Shown: in pieces, positions 18 to 24,807 of the stretch | Layout of the letters: every line of letters begins with the position of its first letter | Position numbering within the stretch: the first letter of the stretch is position 1 | Assembly (NCBI RefSeq): GCF_933509905.1 | Contig: NZ_OW150024.1 | Coordinates: forward strand, 2,716,001-2,780,000 | DNA from: Trichlorobacter ammonificans | Lineage (GTDB): Bacteria > Desulfobacterota > Desulfuromonadia > Geobacterales > Pseudopelobacteraceae | Direction of reading: 5' to 3' | DNA length: 64,000 nucleotides | Translations under genes and position numbers: made by a program | The notes under the pieces: generated by a model | The model's database searches: none | The model's input: the letters and a program-made list of their open reading frames with translations, nothing else | Told to the model about the DNA's origin: nothing

Positions 18-1061
18 ATGTCGAATCCGCCGTACCCGCAGCACCCCGCAGCACCGCCTCAACGTACCGCCGTGGCCCTCCTCTCGGGGGGCCTCGATTC
101 AACCCTTGCCGTCAAGCTGATGCTTGAGCAGGGGATCAGGGTCGTAGCCCTCAACTTCACCTCTCCCTTCTGCACCTGCACCAGCAAGTCATCCGGCTGT
201 AAGTCCGAGGCGGTGCGGGTTGCCCAGGAGTTCAACATCCCGATCACGGTCAAGAACAAGGGGATCGACTATCTGGAGATCGTCCGGGCGCCCCGTTTCG
301 GCTACGGCAAGGGCCTGAACCCCTGCATCGACTGCCGTATCTTCCTGCTGCAGAAAGCCGGTGAGTTTCTGCGGGAAACCGGTGCCGACTTCGTCATCAC
401 CGGCGAGGTGCTGGGGCAGCGCCCCATGAGCCAGCGCCGGGACGCCCTGCTGCGGATCGAGCAGGAAAGCGGCCTGGCCGGCCTGATCCTGCGCCCCCTC
501 TCGGCCCGCCACTTCGAACCCACCATCCCGGAAAACGAGGGGTGGGTTGACCGGGAAAAGCTGCTGGCCATTGAAGGGCGTTCCCGCAAGGAACAGATTC
601 AGCTTGCCGAAGAACTGGACCTGGGGAACTACCCCTGTCCCGCCGGCGGCTGCATGCTGACCGAGCCGCTCTTCGTGCCCAAGCTGAAGGATCTGTTCGA
701 GCAGTGCGACCAACTGGAGATGTTCGACATCAAGCTGCTCAAAACCGGCCGCCACTTCCGGCTCTCCCCCCGGCACAAGCTCGTGCTGGGACGGGACGAG
801 CGCGAGAACGACCTGCTGGCCGCCGTGGCCCGCCCCGAGGACACGGTACTGCTCTGGCAGGACGGCACCGGCCCCTGCGGCCTGCTCACCGGCCCGGAGG
901 ACCCGGCCGTGCTGGATCTGGCCGCTGCCCTGCTGCTGCACCACACCAAGGCGACACCCCGCGAGGAGAGCCGTGTGCTGGTCCGGCACAACGGCCACGA
1001 AAAAACCGTCAGCCGGATGAATGATCTGGAACGGGAGGCTGTTACGGCGCTCCGCCTGTAG
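18..1061 (+). CDS. PP-loop (ThiI/MnmA-like) tRNA thiolation-type ATPase with DUF814-like C-terminus
   Basis: The N-terminal half carries an adenylating PP-loop (SGGLDST, residues 23-29), as in ThiI, MnmA and other tRNA thiolases. Cysteine pairs follow (CTC near 57-59, CIDC near 100, CPAGGC near 206) that could carry persulfide or bind metal. The last ~100 residues resemble the RNA-binding DUF814/NFACT-R region. A GGAAGG Shine-Dalgarno sits 10 bases upstream of the ATG. Such proteins are often annotated as tRNA 2-thiouridylate methyltransferase, which is probably a misnomer. It probably modifies RNA, but the nucleoside is not knowable here. It lies 44 bases before the carbonic anhydrase gene. 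Confidence 0.75.
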   Translation: MSNPPYPQHPAAPPQRTAVALLSGGLDSTLAVKLMLEQGIRVVALNFTSPFCTCTSKSSGCKSEAVRVAQEFNIPITVKNKGIDYLEIVRAPRFGYGKGLNPCIDCRIFLLQKAGEFLRETGADFVITGEVLGQRPMSQRRDALLRIEQESGLAGLILRPLSARHFEPTIPENEGWVDREKLLAIEGRSRKEQIQLAEELDLGNYPCPAGGCMLTEPLFVPKLKDLFEQCDQLEMFDIKLLKTGRHFRLSPRHKLVLGRDERENDLLAAVARPEDTVLLWQDGTGPCGLLTGPEDPAVLDLAAALLLHHTKATPREESRVLVRHNGHEKTVSRMNDLEREAVTALRL

Positions 1062-18607: not shown

Positions 18608-19063
18608 GTGGCTCTGCGCCTGCTGACGACACGGGATATGACCGTGGCGGTACTGCGTCGCAAGCTGCTGATGCGGGGATACGAGGCCGCCACGGTCGAG
18701 AGTGCCGTAGAGCGGCTGCTACGGGAGCGCTACCTGGACGACCGGCGCTACGGCGAACGGTTTGTCGAAGCGGCTCTGACGAGTGGGCGGTACCGTGGTT
18801 ATCGCTTGCGCCAGGAACTGACACGTCGGGGAATTTCCCGCGAACTGACAGCAGAACTGCTGAATACCGTCGATGATCCAGCCGACGAAACCGCCTTGGC
18901 CCGACAGGTGGTCGCCCGCCGCTACGGCGGATTCGATCCTGTCCGCGCCGACGAGCGGGAACGGCGACGCATCGCCGGCTTTCTGCAGCGGCGGGGGTTC
19001 GGGATGGCGACGATCCGTTCGGTGCTGCAGCACAACGGAGAGGAGGGAAGCCATGACGGCTAG
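18608..19063 (+). CDS. recX: regulatory protein RecX
   Basis: Small helical inhibitor of RecA filaments. It contains three RecX three-helix repeats: LRLLTTRDMTVAVLRRKLLMRGY, YLDDRRYGERFV...GRYRGYRLRQELTRRGI, and RRRIAGFLQRRGFGMATIRSVL. The GTG at 18608 is the first common start codon, but in-frame sequence upstream reads D-A-G-R-D-P-Y-L and looks homologous, back to an ATT at 18581 preceded by GAGGTGG. The true start may therefore be that rare ATT, overlapping the pilT stop. The end overlaps the next gene by 11 bases. Confidence 0.88.
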   Translation: MALRLLTTRDMTVAVLRRKLLMRGYEAATVESAVERLLRERYLDDRRYGERFVEAALTSGRYRGYRLRQELTRRGISRELTAELLNTVDDPADETALARQVVARRYGGFDPVRADERERRRIAGFLQRRGFGMATIRSVLQHNGEEGSHDG

Positions 19064-20252
19064 CCGTATCGTACCAGGAACAACGCGCTGGTTGAGCGCT
19101 GTCGCGGCTCTGCTTCTGTTCTGCCTGAGCACGATGACCGCCGCACTGGCGGCGGACCTGCCCTCCGCCCAGGTTGAAGCCGAAGGGTATGCGCTCATCC
19201 CCAACGGACGCAAGGACCTGGGCCGGGAGGCTGCCCTGCAGAACGCCTTCCGCCGGGCCGTGGAACAGGTGGTGGGCGTGGCGGTCGAATCCCGCACCGT
19301 GGTCAAGGATTCGGAACTGCTCAACGACAAGATATTCTCCAAAAGCCGCGGCTTCATCAAGACCTACCGGATTACCGGCGAGCGGACCGAGAACGACGCC
19401 TACCGGGTCGCCATCACGGCCTCGGTTTCCCGTCACCGGCTGGAGCAGGAGTTGGACAACGTGGGGCTGCTGGTCCGCAAGCTGGGCAAGCCCCGTGTCG
19501 CCGTCGTGGTCATGGAGCAGAACGGCGATGCCCCCGCCGCAGCGGGCGGCATCGTGGAAACGGGTCTGACCGGAGCCTTCGGCAAAAAGGGCTATGCCCT
19601 GGTGGATCGCCAAGCCATGCTGGCCGTTGAGCGGGAGGTGGTCAGGGGCCACGGCGACCAGACCGATGCCGTGGTCCGTGCGGCAGCAGCCGGTGGCGCC
19701 GAAGTGGTCATCGTCGGCCAGGCAGCGGCCCGTCACGGTGCTGCCGTGGGGGGTACCAGCCTTCGGCCGGTACAGGCGTCGACCACCTGCCGCGCGGTCG
19801 ATGTGAATACCGGTGAGGTGCTGGCAACGGCAAGTTCTACGCAACAAGCGCTGAACGTCAACCCGGCGGCGGCGGGCACCGAGGCCCTGCAGAAGGCGAC
19901 CCTCGAACTGACCGAGCAGCTGAACCGCCAACTGATCGCCGCCTGGCACAAGCAGCTGACCGGCGTGCGCACCCTGCACCTGACCGTCACGGACCTTCCC
20001 GCCGTTGAAGCACCGCGTCTCAGGGAGGCCCTCAAGGAACAGATGGGGCAGGTGGAGGAGGTACGCGAGCGTGGCTACCGCAATCATCAGCTGCGCTTGG
20101 AACTGGAGGTCTGCGGCACAACCCGCAGCGTCATCGACGAGTTGGCCTCCCTGAATCTCGGCGGGAGCCGGCTGAAGATTTCCGGCTATTCATCAGGGAC
20201 GGTACAGGCGCACTGGACGGGTCCGGCGAAAAAGGGGGGGAAGAAACCATGA
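19053..20252 (+). CDS. secreted FlgT-N/CsgG-cassette protein (first gene of envelope cassette)
   Basis: 399 residues from the ATG at 19053, which has a strong GGAGGGA site. A signal peptide covers ~1-34 (hydrophobic VAALLLFCLSTMTAALA). Residues ~45-130 (GRKDLGREAALQNAFRRAVEQVVG...ESRTVVKDSELLNDKIFSKSRGFIKTYRI) match the N-terminal domain of the flagellar assembly protein FlgT. The rest has an RVAVVVMEQN strand and a nucleotide-free alpha/beta fold like FlgT-M/CsgG. No flagellar genes are near. It overlaps recX by 11 bases and the next gene by 4. Likely a periplasmic or outer-membrane assembly component. Confidence 0.65.
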   Translation: MTASRIVPGTTRWLSAVAALLLFCLSTMTAALAADLPSAQVEAEGYALIPNGRKDLGREAALQNAFRRAVEQVVGVAVESRTVVKDSELLNDKIFSKSRGFIKTYRITGERTENDAYRVAITASVSRHRLEQELDNVGLLVRKLGKPRVAVVVMEQNGDAPAAAGGIVETGLTGAFGKKGYALVDRQAMLAVEREVVRGHGDQTDAVVRAAAAGGAEVVIVGQAAARHGAAVGGTSLRPVQASTTCRAVDVNTGEVLATASSTQQALNVNPAAAGTEALQKATLELTEQLNRQLIAAWHKQLTGVRTLHLTVTDLPAVEAPRLREALKEQMGQVEEVRERGYRNHQLRLELEVCGTTRSVIDELASLNLGGSRLKISGYSSGTVQAHWTGPAKKGGKKP

Positions 20253-22231
20253 AGCGGATACTGGCAGGTGTCGCAGTATGCATTCTGGCCGGATGCAACA
20301 ATCCGGGCAAGGAAAGCTTTGAGCTGGGACGACAACTGGAACGGCAGGGACGGCTGGATGAAGCGATCACCCTGTACGAGGACGCCCTGACCAAGGAGCG
20401 GGACAACCAGGAGTACCAGCAGGTTCTGGCCGGTGCCCGCAAGGCTGCTGCCGGACGGTTCATCGAACAGGGGCGCAAGCGTCTGCAGGGAGCGCCCCCT
20501 ACCTACGACCTGCTGCGGGCGGCCCAACTGGATCTGGACAAGGCGCTCAAGGCGGACCCGACCAACAGCGAGGCCAGGGCACTGGCCGCATCGATCAAGA
20601 GCCAGTCCGATGCCCTGCTCACGCGGGCAGAGACGCTCTATGGCGAATCGGGCAAGGCAGCAGAAGCCAAGGACTGGCCCACTGCCATCAACAAGCTGCG
20701 CGAGCTGCGCCAGTTCTATCCCACATACCTCGATCTGGCCGTCAAGCTTCCCCAGACGGAAAGTGCGGCCGTCAGCCACTATCTCAGGGAAGTTGAACGT
20801 CTGCGGTCGCAGGACAACCTGGACGGCATGATCGCCGCTCTGCAGCAGGCCCTGGCCATCCAGCCGTCAAACCAGCAGCTGACGGCCCTGCTGGCGGACA
20901 CCAAGGCACAGAACACCGCCGCCGCCTGGTTTGCCAAGGCGGAACAGCGGGCCGGTCAGCAGAAGTGGCGCGATGCTGTTGACTATCTGCGCAAGGCCCA
21001 GGCACTGGAGCCGGACGCGGAACTATCCGCCAAGATGCATGAACTGCGCCGCCAGGGTGCCGGCCGGCTTCTGCAGCAGGCAACGGTACACCTCAACCGC
21101 AAGCAACTGTACAGCGCCTATCTGTCCCTTTTGGCCAGTGTCGAGCTTTCCCCCGACTCCCTCAAAGAGGGGGAGGCGTCTGAGCTACGCCGGCAGCTGG
21201 TCGGCGAGATGACGGCGAAATCTCAGGAAAGCGAGACCGGCGGCCTGCTGGGCAATGCCTACCACTGGCAGGAGTTGGCCCTGAAGCTGGGCGGACCTGA
21301 CCGGGCTGCTTCCCAGCGGTTGCAGGGGCTCAAGGACCGGCTGCGGCAACGGGTGGTCAAGAAGATCGCCGTGATGGATTTCACGCCGCCCACCAACAGT
21401 ACGGATGCCGGGCGCCTGGTCACGGACAGCCTGCTCTCCTACATGACCAAGAACGCCAGCAGCGACGTAAAAATACTTGCCCGCGACGTGCTGGGTGCCA
21501 TCATCAAGGAAATCGAGTTCGGCCAGGCCGGGCTGTACGATATCGAAAGCGCCAAGAAAACGGGCAAGCTGAAGGGTACCGACATCTTCATCTTCGGCAG
21601 CGTGCTGCAGTACAGCGTGGAAAAGGGGGCCGAAGAGAGCTCGAAGATGGTCAACGTTTCCGTGGCCAAGCGCAAGGTCTCCAACCCGGCTTACCAGAGC
21701 TGGCTGCAGCGGAATCCGTCACCCAACGAGCGGGAGCTGGCCCTGGCGCCGCCGGCCCTGATCGATGAGGACATTCGTGAAACGGTGCGCTACAAGGTGG
21801 GTACCCATAAAAAAACCGCCAACGTGGCCCTCTCCTTCCGGGTGATCGACGTGGAGTCCGGCGAGGTGGTCATCACCAAAACCATCAAAAGCAAAAAAGA
21901 AGCTCAGGATAACTTCTCCGAGGGAGTCGAATTCGCCAATATTCCCTTCGACCCCCTGCAACTCCCTCCGGACACCGAGCTGCTGGAAAAGGCGGTGGAG
22001 GAAGGGATCGCCGAGTTGGGGCATCTGGTGCTGTCCCGCTTTCAGAATCTGCAGGCTACCTACCTGAATGCCGCCGAGCTTCTGGGTAAAAAAGGACAAC
22101 ATGATACGGCCATCGAACGCTACATCGACGCCATGGTGTCCGAAGAGGTGAAAAACGTTTCCAGCCAGGTAACCGAGCAGGCTCGCCGTGAAATCGACCG
22201 CCAGCTCCAACTGGCGGACAACAGCAGATAG
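20249..22231 (+). CDS. TPR-rich lipoprotein with CsgG-like domain
   Basis: 660 residues. A short signal peptide ends at lipobox ILAGC, with Cys16 as lipid anchor. Residues ~20-330 are TPR-like helices (ELGRQLERQGRLDEAITLYEDAL and several degenerate copies). From ~355 the sequence changes to a CsgG/curli-pore-like fold: VKKIAVMDFTPPTNSTDAGRLVTDSLLSYM, GTDIFIFGSVLQYS, NVALSFRVIDVESGEVV. A final TPR-like helix pair ends the protein. CsgG proper is a lipoprotein pore for curli subunits. Whether this one forms a pore is unproven. It is coupled by ATGA to the preceding gene. Confidence 0.7.
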   Translation: MKRILAGVAVCILAGCNNPGKESFELGRQLERQGRLDEAITLYEDALTKERDNQEYQQVLAGARKAAAGRFIEQGRKRLQGAPPTYDLLRAAQLDLDKALKADPTNSEARALAASIKSQSDALLTRAETLYGESGKAAEAKDWPTAINKLRELRQFYPTYLDLAVKLPQTESAAVSHYLREVERLRSQDNLDGMIAALQQALAIQPSNQQLTALLADTKAQNTAAAWFAKAEQRAGQQKWRDAVDYLRKAQALEPDAELSAKMHELRRQGAGRLLQQATVHLNRKQLYSAYLSLLASVELSPDSLKEGEASELRRQLVGEMTAKSQESETGGLLGNAYHWQELALKLGGPDRAASQRLQGLKDRLRQRVVKKIAVMDFTPPTNSTDAGRLVTDSLLSYMTKNASSDVKILARDVLGAIIKEIEFGQAGLYDIESAKKTGKLKGTDIFIFGSVLQYSVEKGAEESSKMVNVSVAKRKVSNPAYQSWLQRNPSPNERELALAPPALIDEDIRETVRYKVGTHKKTANVALSFRVIDVESGEVVITKTIKSKKEAQDNFSEGVEFANIPFDPLQLPPDTELLEKAVEEGIAELGHLVLSRFQNLQATYLNAAELLGKKGQHDTAIERYIDAMVSEEVKNVSSQVTEQARREIDRQLQLADNSR

Positions 22232-22251
22232 ATGCGGTGGGGGTGCTTGTC

Positions 22252-24480
22252 ATGGGCTGGCGTCAGACACGCATAAAGGCAATGATCCGGTTACTCCGTG
22301 CCCTACTCTGCGGCGGGCTGGTGCTGTGCTTGGCGGCCTCCTGGGGGGGCGCCGCCGAGCATCGCCTGAAGTCAAAGCTGGCAGCCGTACCGTTTGTAGC
22401 CAGCAACATCGAGGCCATGGCCTTTACCGAGTACCTGACCACGGTGCTTTTGAACGAACTGGACAACACCGGACAGTTCGAAATTTTCGAGCGGAAACGG
22501 CTGGAGTCGATGATGGCCCTGGAAGGGGTCCGTTCCGACTCGCTGACTCCGGAGCAGATGCAGCGGCTGGGAAGCAGGCTGGGCCTTGACTTCCTGGTTG
22601 CCGGTACCGTGACCAGCCAGCCGCAGGGCATGCTGATCAACCTGCGTCTGCTGAGCCTGCGCAGTCAGAAAATTCTCTTTACCGAACAGACACGGATGAC
22701 CGAGGCTGATACCAGCCGCATGCTGCGGGAGATCGCCTGGAAGGTCAAAGATGTCGTGCAGGGCGCCACCGTTCCCCGCACCGTTTCTCCCGTCTCCGTT
22801 CCCCTGCAGCCGCCGACCTCGCTTGAGGCCGTGGGATCAACCAATGCCGTGCGGTTGCGCTGGAAACCGCAGAATCCCACCCAGGTGGTCGGCTACCTGG
22901 TACAGCGCGCGCTCACGCCGGAGGGGCCGTTCAACACCGTCAGCACCGTGACCGAACCGGCCTACACCGATGAAAACCTGCGTCTGAACGAGAGCTTTTT
23001 CTACCGGGTGGCTGCCGTGGGCCAGGGGGGCGGCACCAGCCAGCCGACGACAGCGGTGCGCGGCGCCACCACCATCGCGCCGGCAGCGCCGATCTTCATG
23101 AATGCCGAGCCGCTGCTCGGCAGCGCCGTCCTCACCTGGCGCCAGCGCCCCTTCGGCGGCAATGACGCGCAGACCACCCCCCGGGGTGTGCAGATTTACC
23201 GCCGCAGTAGCGCAGAAAAAGAATTTACGCCGGTCACCCGGGTTGGTGAAGAAGCAATGACGTTCCGGGACCAGGGGCTGAAAGACGGTACTACCTACCT
23301 GTACGCAATGACCGCCTTCAACCTGGCAGGGGCGGAAAGCGAGCTGTCGGTACAGCTCTCGGTCACCACACCGCCGACCACGGGCGGGATTACCGTCACC
23401 AGCGGCAAGGTACGACGGATTCCCCTTTCGTGGCAGATGCATCCCTTTGAACAGGTAAACGGCTATCGGCTGGAGCGGGCCACCGCGCAGGACGGGCCGT
23501 ACCGTGAGATTGCCGTGGTGAACGGACGGGAACGGACCAGCTACCTTGATACCGATCTGGCTGACAAGACCACCTACTGGTACCGAGTTTCCGCCCTGAG
23601 CAAGGAAGCGGGCACCGGAGGCCCCTCGCCGGAACTCTCGGCAACAACCCGCGACCTGCCGCCGGCGCCGGTAAAGGTTACCGCCGGCAGCGGCGAACCC
23701 CGTCGTATCACGATCAGCTGGGAGTCCGCCGCCGTTGCGGACGATGAAGTAACCGCCTATCAACTCTATCGCGGTGAAGCGGGACAGGAGACCCTGAGCA
23801 GGATAGCGGAGCTGAGGGCCCACCAGACCTCGTTTCGTGACGATGAAAAGCCGCTCAAGGATGCGACCGCCTATTCGTACGTCGTTTCTGCAGTCAACGC
23901 CGGCGGGGCGGTCAGCACCTTAAGCGCCCGCGCCACGGCCACCACCAAGGCGGTACCGGCCATGCCGCGGGGGATGACAGCGGCCTCGGGCGAACCGCGC
24001 CGGGTGACCCTGCGCTGGCAGAAGAATCCCGAAGCGGACATCACCGACTACGTAGTCTATCGCAAACATGATGACGGTGAATTCCGCCAGCTGAAGCACA
24101 CCCAGGAACCGGGACTTGTCGATGGCGACCTGCGGGACGGTCAGACCTACAGCTACCGGCTTCAGGCCGTGGACAAGGACGGCCTGGAAAGTCCGCTGTC
24201 CGAGCCGGTGACGGCAGTCACCAAGTCGTTGCCCAAACCGGTGGACGGGCTGCTGCTCAAGGACCGTACCGCCCGGACCGTAACCTGGCAGAAGTCGGCC
24301 CAGAGCGACGTCCGGCAGTACGCCGTTTACAAGAAAGGATTTTTCGGCGGCCAGAAGCTGGCTACCCTGGAGGCAACTGAGTGGAAGGTACAGGAACCGG
24401 GCAAGCTGGAACTGTACGTCACCGCAGTCGATGCCGATGGCCTGGAAAGCGAACCGTCGGCAGTGCTGGTCATCGAATAG
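22252..24480 (+). CDS. secreted CsgG/TolB-N-like protein with six fibronectin type III domains
   Basis: 742 residues from the ATG at 22252 (GTGGGGGTG site); an ATG at 22282 would also give a good signal peptide. After the signal (~11-35) comes an alpha/beta domain at ~38-170 (KLAAVPFVASNIEAMAFTEYLTTVLLNEL...FLVAGTVTSQ) of CsgG/TolB-N/FlgT type. Six consecutive FN3 domains follow at about 187-272, 277-372, 373-467, 469-565, 567-658 and 659-742, each ending with a Y-x-Y/V-x-A-V strand. There is no membrane anchor or sorting motif. An extended surface or periplasmic adhesin or scaffold is plausible. Confidence 0.75.
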   Translation: MGWRQTRIKAMIRLLRALLCGGLVLCLAASWGGAAEHRLKSKLAAVPFVASNIEAMAFTEYLTTVLLNELDNTGQFEIFERKRLESMMALEGVRSDSLTPEQMQRLGSRLGLDFLVAGTVTSQPQGMLINLRLLSLRSQKILFTEQTRMTEADTSRMLREIAWKVKDVVQGATVPRTVSPVSVPLQPPTSLEAVGSTNAVRLRWKPQNPTQVVGYLVQRALTPEGPFNTVSTVTEPAYTDENLRLNESFFYRVAAVGQGGGTSQPTTAVRGATTIAPAAPIFMNAEPLLGSAVLTWRQRPFGGNDAQTTPRGVQIYRRSSAEKEFTPVTRVGEEAMTFRDQGLKDGTTYLYAMTAFNLAGAESELSVQLSVTTPPTTGGITVTSGKVRRIPLSWQMHPFEQVNGYRLERATAQDGPYREIAVVNGRERTSYLDTDLADKTTYWYRVSALSKEAGTGGPSPELSATTRDLPPAPVKVTAGSGEPRRITISWESAAVADDEVTAYQLYRGEAGQETLSRIAELRAHQTSFRDDEKPLKDATAYSYVVSAVNAGGAVSTLSARATATTKAVPAMPRGMTAASGEPRRVTLRWQKNPEADITDYVVYRKHDDGEFRQLKHTQEPGLVDGDLRDGQTYSYRLQAVDKDGLESPLSEPVTAVTKSLPKPVDGLLLKDRTARTVTWQKSAQSDVRQYAVYKKGFFGGQKLATLEATEWKVQEPGKLELYVTAVDADGLESEPSAVLVIE

Positions 24481-24489
24481 GAGGATGCC

Positions 24490-24807
24490 ATGACGTATCG
24501 GGTTGGGTTCTGTGCCGCCGGACTGCTGCTGGGCCTGCTGACAACGGACGCCGTAGCAAACAACAAGGCTGCCATTGTCCAGGAAATCGGACGTTACCAG
24601 CTTTTTCAGGGCAGCTATACCACCTTTGACCTGAAGCGCAAAGAAACCTATGTCCACCAGGGTGTTTTCCTGCTGGATACCGCAACCGGTGACGTGAAGA
24701 GGTACATTAATAAAATTGACGTAGAAGGGCGCTACATTGAAACCTGGCTGCCCACCGACCTTTCGGGGGTAGACAAGGGGCGTCCCGCACAGGAGAGGAA
24801 GCCATAG
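24490..24807 (+). CDS. small secreted protein, unknown function
   Basis: 105 residues with a clear signal peptide (LLLGLLTTDAVANN, cleavage near residue 24). The mature ~80 residues read as a small beta protein (RYQLFQGSYTTFDLKRKETYVHQGVFLLDTATGDVKRYINKID) ending in a charged tail. The phrase LLDTATGDVKRY resembles small domains found in repeated bacterial surface proteins, but I assign no family. It is the last gene of the cassette; its stop abuts the alaS start, so expression is probably linked to alaS. It could be a substrate or accessory of the upstream components. Confidence 0.7.
   Translation: MTYRVGFCAAGLLLGLLTTDAVANNKAAIVQEIGRYQLFQGSYTTFDLKRKETYVHQGVFLLDTATGDVKRYINKIDVEGRYIETWLPTDLSGVDKGRPAQERKP

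Follow-up and report, generated by a model that had tools for sequence, protein, structure and literature searches.

A conserved four-gene envelope unit with FlgT-like and CsgG-type proteins between recX and alaS in Trichlorobacter ammonificans

What do four genes for exported proteins, lodged between recX and alaS, build in the envelope of Trichlorobacter ammonificans? The junction lies in a 64-kb stretch of a single-contig, 3.06-Mb genome (the window, by which the whole of the DNA analysed here is meant), where it is filled by four genes, A, B, C and D, all on one strand and in this order in the list of open reading frames (ORFs). Together they are referred to below as the unit. A encodes a secreted FlgT-like protein, B a lipoprotein that joins TPRs to a CsgG-type domain, C a secreted protein with FN3-like repeats and D a small secreted protein. 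An initial annotation of the window had proposed an outer-membrane secretion or assembly system that is neither curli nor flagellum. Its outer-membrane-associated, non-curli and non-flagellar character is retained in our analysis; the secretion pore is not. The unit recurs in two phyla, the models of A and B match ring-forming envelope proteins, and many carriers give no flagellar or curli marker match. With a probability of roughly 0.5, we read A-D as a conserved envelope assembly, distinct from flagellum and curli, that would act as a collar stabilising another envelope machine.

The four ORFs are as tightly spaced, and as closely tied to recX and alaS, as first described, overlapping by no more than 11 nucleotides (nt) and never lying more than 9 nt apart: by their coordinates, recX (which ends at 19063) overlaps A by 11 nt and A overlaps B by 4 nt, 5 nt separate B from C and 9 nt C from D, and D abuts alaS directly. 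Upstream lie recA, pilT and recX, and downstream alaS and argB. Such an arrangement is more than a product of chance, because the gene order recurs in other genomes. It was found between recX and alaS in ten relatives' loci fetched by position, and a wider set of 50 loci was assembled from a species-genome scan (32) and a phylum search (18 stretches; B in 22 of 297 genomes), from which four (L099-L102), with distant B relatives only (194-247 bits) and without A, C or D, were dropped before counting. In the 46 loci with a B match above 300 bits, A stands directly upstream in 41 of 45 assessable cases and C directly downstream in 40 of 42, while D follows C in 32 of 38 (26 by its own profile, 6 by the profile of a D-like gene); these counts are not independent, as the profiles were built from many of the same loci and some loci are closely related to one another (L053-L055; four of genus g59). 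The four genes are thus neither scattered nor confined to this genome, and they co-occur at differing sites in Thermodesulfobacteriota and Nitrospirota. Seventeen of the 32 species-scan loci, each rechecked for its site by tblastn, lie at recX-alaS (both neighbours are visible in 14, and one in the 3 where the contig ends) and 15 lie elsewhere. The unit is rare in Nitrospirota, the phylum of L062, where the B profile was found in 4 of 245 genomes. The features of the unit are collected in Table 1.

Table 1. Genes and domains of the unit (nucleotide positions in the window; residue numbers in the encoded proteins)
Feature	Position	Strand	Description
Gene A	19053..20252	+	399 residues, secreted FlgT-like protein
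Domains of A	residues ~38-126; 145-300; 306-390		FlgT_N/LPP20-like; CsgG/TolB-N/PelC-like middle; C-terminal alpha/beta
Gene B	20249..22231	+	660 residues, TPR and CsgG-type lipoprotein
CsgG-like domain of B	21359..22048	+	from model and fold matches
Domains of B	C16; residues 20-369; 370-601		lipobox; TPR-type helices; CsgG/PelC/FlgT-M-like domain
Gene C	22237..24480	+	747 residues, secreted, FlgO/CsgG-type head and FN3-like repeats
Domains of C	residues ~47-155; 190-745		FlgO/TolB-N/CsgG-like head; six FN3-like repeats
Gene D	24490..24807	+	105 residues, small secreted protein, last before alaS (24808)

The presence of A in the FlgT fold family is seen best in its model. The FlgT_N match in Pfam falls just short of the cut-off (26.3 against 28.8 bits), but the AlphaFold2 model, built from a 27-sequence alignment with a predicted local distance difference test score (pLDDT) of 79 and a predicted template-modelling score (pTM) of 0.46, matches FlgT, in keeping with the FlgT-N-like secreted protein of the initial annotation. 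Its top two Foldseek matches in the PDB are 8z5n_0 (E 3.6e-10, 407 columns), an LPHT-ring entry whose row names the ring only and which, from the fold match, we take to be FlgT, and the FlgT structure 3w1e (E 2.7e-9, 392 columns). On this model, A has the FlgT fold along nearly its whole length. Template-modelling scores (TM-scores) against FlgT are low in Foldseek (0.24-0.34), for which we think that a different turn of the domains is probably responsible; the VIA-align superposition on 3w1e covers 219 residues with Z 9.3 and a root-mean-square deviation of 7.3, and the predicted orientation of the domains therefore differs from that of FlgT. The middle domain alone reaches a VIA-align Z of about 12 against PelC and TolB (PelC, Z 12.4 over 125 residues), and the N-terminal domain, compared with the PDB by profile, matches 9hmf, a 'Lipoprotein, putative' (E 6.5e-8). 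A also resembles LipL46 of Leptospira (NCBIfam NF033164), with which it aligns over most of its length (residues 37-343, 69.9 bits), as do two relatives of A (49.8 and 51.6 bits); however, the score of A is far below the cut-off of 400, and LipL46 is a lipoprotein, whereas the signal peptide of A, which like those of C and D was assigned by inspection only, is of the non-lipoprotein type. A cannot serve as a marker for the unit: A-like proteins occur in 89 of the 297 phylum genomes (E<=1e-15) against 22 for B (E<=1e-30). FlgT-like proteins are thus common across the phylum, and the parts of the unit are members of fold families already described. The host genome itself has, outside the window at L154:5956-10269 (G000:C1 ~2414955-2419268), a tandem of four secreted proteins of 303, 367, 376 and 374 residues that look FlgT-like by eye. 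The 367-residue protein overlaps a match of the A profile (E 7.8e-33) and gives a FlgT_N match below cut-off (23.8 bits), the 303-residue protein matches A weakly, and the other members have no convincing Pfam name.

B is, as first described, a TPR lipoprotein with a CsgG-like domain. Pfam finds CsgG at 45.8 bits (cut-off 20.8) along with TPRs, and all 29 aligned rows have the lipobox cysteine C16; equally invariant are N479, P480, Y482 and W485, which belong to an insert of the form NPxYxxW...AP...ETxxYKV. PF03783 (CsgG) matches in the host genome at E<=0.001 are confined to B and C. In the model of B (pLDDT 86, pTM 0.57), the predicted ring-type domain is closest to PelC (VIA-align Z 14.9, 2.2 Å, 117 residues), followed by the middle domain of FlgT (Z 13.2-13.3) and CsgG (Z 12.6, 4.4 Å, 162 residues). 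The CsgG-type fold anticipated for the models is accordingly found in both A and B. When the profile of B was compared with a single sequence of CsgG, the match (12.5% probability, 15 columns) gave no information. At the place of the CsgG hairpins the model of B has long strands (446-478, 504-534 and 539-557; 19-33 residues) whose conserved residues are mostly charged or polar (Lys/Arg/Glu/Asp), and we read them as a putative binding surface more likely than a barrel.

The head of C matches CsgG (27.6 bits) and FlgO (25.1 bits) in Pfam, both over their cut-offs, with TolB_N below its own (19.6 against 22.4); the start codon of the gene is ambiguous (GTG at 22237 or ATG at 22252). The six FN3 domains previously ascribed to C are partly borne out. 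The protein as a whole scores 101.7 bits with fn3 and its repeats are about 93 residues long, but when they are scored singly only repeats 1, 3, 4 and 5 match fn3 (E<=5.3e-5), repeat 2 does so at 0.06 and repeat 6 gives no match, so that two of the six rest on spacing. The orthologues in L015 and L016 are one FN3 repeat short. D has a conserved core, GRYQLFQGxYTTxDLK...FLLDTxTGxVKRYxNKID, with 26 invariant columns in 11 rows. No named family was found for it in Pfam (nothing below E 0.12), and a search of PDB sequences with the D profile gave nothing (best E 1.3). The gene had been put forward as a candidate secreted substrate. Yet no curlin repeats or other Pfam family were found in D, its conservation is similar to that of A and C, and in the 297 phylum genomes it occurs only where B does (6 of 6); being conserved and found only with B, it fits a fixed component better than a substrate. 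A profile of the D-like gene that follows C in six distant loci, made from five of these, can be aligned with D over just 26 columns (88% probability), which is suggestive of a relationship between the two.

The non-flagellar and non-curli character of the unit is supported by the genomes that carry it. FlhB (PF01312) was detected in 22 of 40 carriers, the host included, and in 12 of the 21 high-quality ones, leaving 18 and 9, respectively, with no match. CsgF was found in none of the 40 at E<=0.001, with a positive E. coli control. Pilus-related families are general in these genomes: T2SSE ATPases occur in all 40 (3-17 each), as does PilM_2 at E<=1e-5, with a strong match (E<1e-15) in 38 and short weak ones in G009 and G317. 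No paper describing the unit was found in the open-licence literature, which was partly judged by titles and the beginnings of abstracts, in agreement with the initial annotation, to which no described system with this gene set was known. Nor did that literature yield a paper linking TsaP, FlgT and the secretin, and no such link is used here.

Taken together, these features point to the following arrangement. B would be lipid-anchored, most likely in the outer membrane, with its TPR arm extending into the periplasm and its CsgG/PelC-type domain lying beneath the membrane. A, with its FlgT-like fold, and C, with an FlgO-like head on an FN3 stalk, share a fold family with B, and the three together would probably form, at a stoichiometry that we can only infer, a collar or ring lying beneath the outer membrane, to which D would be added as a small fixed partner. 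The collar may hold, align or stabilise another envelope-spanning machine. We know of no H-ring counterpart for B or D. Known systems offer two precedents for such a ring. In the polar flagellum of Vibrio, where FlgT, FlgO and FlgP are the H-ring proteins, FlgT and FlgO form an outer-membrane-linked H ring, according to the portion of the source available (PMC6504787); the fold of A is that of FlgT and the head of C matches FlgO, whereas C carries FN3 repeats and 18 of the 40 carriers give no FlhB match. The second is the PelC dodecamer, which contacts the TPR domain of PelB in the available part of its description (PMC12141448).

Several observations weigh against the collar. The CsgG/PelC-type fold is also present in TolB, LptE and LpoB, and is therefore no proof of a ring. 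Query-normalised TM-scores of the A and B models are low in Foldseek (0.08-0.31), and for B the program ranks unrelated TPR proteins first, with CsgG at rank 20 (E 3.1e-5). A missing FlhB can be an assembly gap in the many carriers that are known as metagenome assemblies. The unit is also patchy, being present in G009 but not in G002 although the two are closely related, and its client therefore cannot be essential. As for that client, the evidence, which is weak, favours type IV pili over any other single candidate. In 29 loci away from recX-alaS, 15 of them from the species-genome scan, a PilT-family gene is a direct neighbour of the unit in 2 (L060 and L067; 0.14 expected, Poisson P 0.0085). 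Counting genes up to two away brings in L096 (3 loci; 0.27 expected, P 0.0026), and up to eight away L098 as well (4 loci; 0.72 expected, P 0.0063), but these P values are optimistic, the count being post hoc and begun after the first cases had been seen. Within five genes the number still stands at 3 of 29 (0.57 expected, P 0.02), pilus genes occur widely in these phyla, and the order pilT-recX-alaS is also seen without the unit.

The pilus enters into a more specific form of the collar, which we regard as doubtful: an H-ring-like but non-flagellar machine in which FlgT-, FlgO- and TraC-like parts form a collar for a type IV pilus, or for a sister retractile machine, and which gene transfer would have carried between Thermodesulfobacteriota and Nitrospirota. 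Phylogenies bear on the spread. In a tree of B (42 rows; a quick method, with long-branch warnings), Nitrospirota are intermixed with Thermodesulfobacteriota, with three changes, two of them forced. On an alaS tree (35 rows, 7 carriers; without L015 and L019, which are too short, and L018, L021, L131 and L132, which were not entered), presence of the unit requires four changes, three forced by starred branches; there L104 of G002, without the unit, is the starred sister of L016 of G009, which has it (support 100/98). Relatives without a strong B match bear on the genes having been, as the initial annotation put it, inserted between recX and alaS, be it through gain here or loss elsewhere: 30 of 46 were checked, and 29 of these have pilT-recX-alaS with recX beside alaS and too little space for the unit (aligned ends at most ~310 nt apart), the thirtieth, L131, being cut by a contig end. 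Comparison of the empty site of G002 with the filled one of G009 places the end of homology near the 3' end of recX and its resumption 7 nt before the alaS start. A mobile element as the vehicle is not supported, as no obvious duplication was seen by eye at the G002/G009 junctions, where no repeat or integrase search was made.

A further alternative, also unlikely, is that the unit does not form a structural collar and instead has a TraC-type function, helping outer-membrane proteins to be displayed at the surface, processed or turned over. TraC (MXAN_0804), which takes part with TraA and TraB in outer-membrane exchange in Myxococcus, is a 604-residue lipoprotein of the outer membrane that combines TPRs with a C-terminal domain described as uncharacterised, and its loss impairs exchange and raises TraAB levels, for which a role in TraAB function, turnover or processing has been suggested in the part of the paper available (PMC8546572). 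It is the best named match to the full architecture of B, a lipoprotein in which TPRs are likewise followed by a C-terminal domain: both halves of B match its profile (NF040658), if weakly (TPR part, E 1.6e-5 at profile positions 42-145; CsgG half, E 4.9e-5 at 408-542), and three other B relatives match it whole. However, B scores 42 bits and the set as a whole 36-45, far under the cut-off of 500. That part of the paper names no partners such as A, C and D alongside TraC, and FlgT, CsgG and fibronectin do not appear in its main text (PMC8546572). Conversely, the C-terminal domain of TraC probably has a CsgG/PelC/FlgT-middle-type fold, judging from its similarity to B.

An accessory for polysaccharide or adhesin export of the PelC type, in which the TPR arm and ring domain of B guide a polymer to a barrel encoded elsewhere, is improbable. 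PelC gives the top fold score for both B and A and is the closest solved fold to the ring-type domains of the two, and TPRs next to a PelC ring are the layout of PelBC in the available part of the source (PMC12141448). Beside the unit in L071 there is also a gene with an outer-membrane-barrel match below cut-off (17.6 bits), with relatives in L085 and L097 that have no Pfam match. On the other hand, no barrel, synthase or deacetylase is among A-D, and the TPRs are fused to the barrel in PelB but to the ring-type domain in B. Little probability is likewise left for a CsgG-like pore, in which B would oligomerise into an outer-membrane channel for the export of D, while A would serve as a periplasmic gate and C as a stalk. 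Like CsgG, B is a lipoprotein, its CsgG domain is over the Pfam cut-off, CsgG is among its fold matches, and the model has a long strand pair at the place of the first CsgG hairpin, but B differs in its TPR arm and in its polar strands with a conserved insert. The pore is not supported because these strands, although long, are strongly charged, even if their beta-moments (0.18-1.39) overlap those of the CsgG hairpins (0.87-1.09). Carriers without CsgF, a D without curlin repeats and six of 38 assessable units with no detectable D also speak against it. It is very improbable that the unit is a duplicated FlgT/FlgO-like accessory set still serving the flagellum, since the FlgT fold of A, the FlgO head of C and FlhB in the host stand against the many carriers with no FlhB match and neighbours whose only flagellar names in the Pfam scan are of the FlgT and FlgO types.

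Outside Geobacteraceae and their near kin, a Pfam scan of neighbouring genes often places the unit among other envelope genes, of the kind that would be expected for a structural assembly. They include LPP20, GNA1162 (two with NosD-type repeats), FlgO, transglutaminase-like and FecR families, CsgG lipoproteins with FlgT_M or FlgT_C matches below cut-off, a CHASE2-cyclase in L071, and TPR lipoproteins ending in an SLH domain (L071:3778-4998; L085:2133-4121, which is also CsgG-type; L093:1000-2379). At L100:9342-16959 a distant B relative (247 bits) lies beside transglutaminase-like, CHASE2-cyclase and FecR-TPR genes; A, C and D are not directly beside it, and its three neighbour families also flank the unit in L071. 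The Syntrophaceae loci L075-L077 are exceptions: none of them has A immediately ahead of B, and C is missing from L075 and L077. Giant secreted genes encoding 2156-2271 residues directly precede B there (L075:2133-8948, L076:2317-8883, L077:2470-8940), with PKD domains in those of L075 and L077; in two of the three loci A lies 6.5-6.9 kb upstream, beyond a giant gene with PKD domains. The B-type lipoprotein may have these giant proteins as surface clients. In L068 B has no adjacent A, and an A relative stands on another contig, of what is probably the same genome, next to LPP20 and TPR-SLH genes. L088:1-12191 (G341, of a distant family) carries A, B, C, a D-like gene, a cinA-like gene, recA, recX and alaS on one strand, so that the unit lies across recA from its usual place, given which the link of the unit with the recA-recX-alaS neighbourhood may be old. 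B of L060 is sister, in the B tree, to that of L063, which lies at the usual recX-alaS site, and the L060 unit has probably moved and come to stand again by a pilT-type gene. Directly after D in that locus (L060:12917-14587) comes a PilT-type ATPase of 556 residues, extended at its N-terminus by about 190 residues, and after it a gene for a cyclic-nucleotide-binding protein that has an Hfq match below cut-off. Promoter-like sites number 2 against 1.4 expected and terminator-like sites 4 against 8.1, and no regulation is claimed.

FlgT has been described as a part of the flagellum, and the presence of its fold in carriers that often give no FlhB match implies that it serves other machines as well. 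B in turn hints at what the C-terminal domain of TraC, so far uncharacterised, may be: a fold of the CsgG/PelC/FlgT-middle type. If the H-ring-like reading with a pilus or sister machine as client were true, flagellar H rings, a part of the TraC system and the rings of curli and Pel would be branches of one family of outer-membrane collars.

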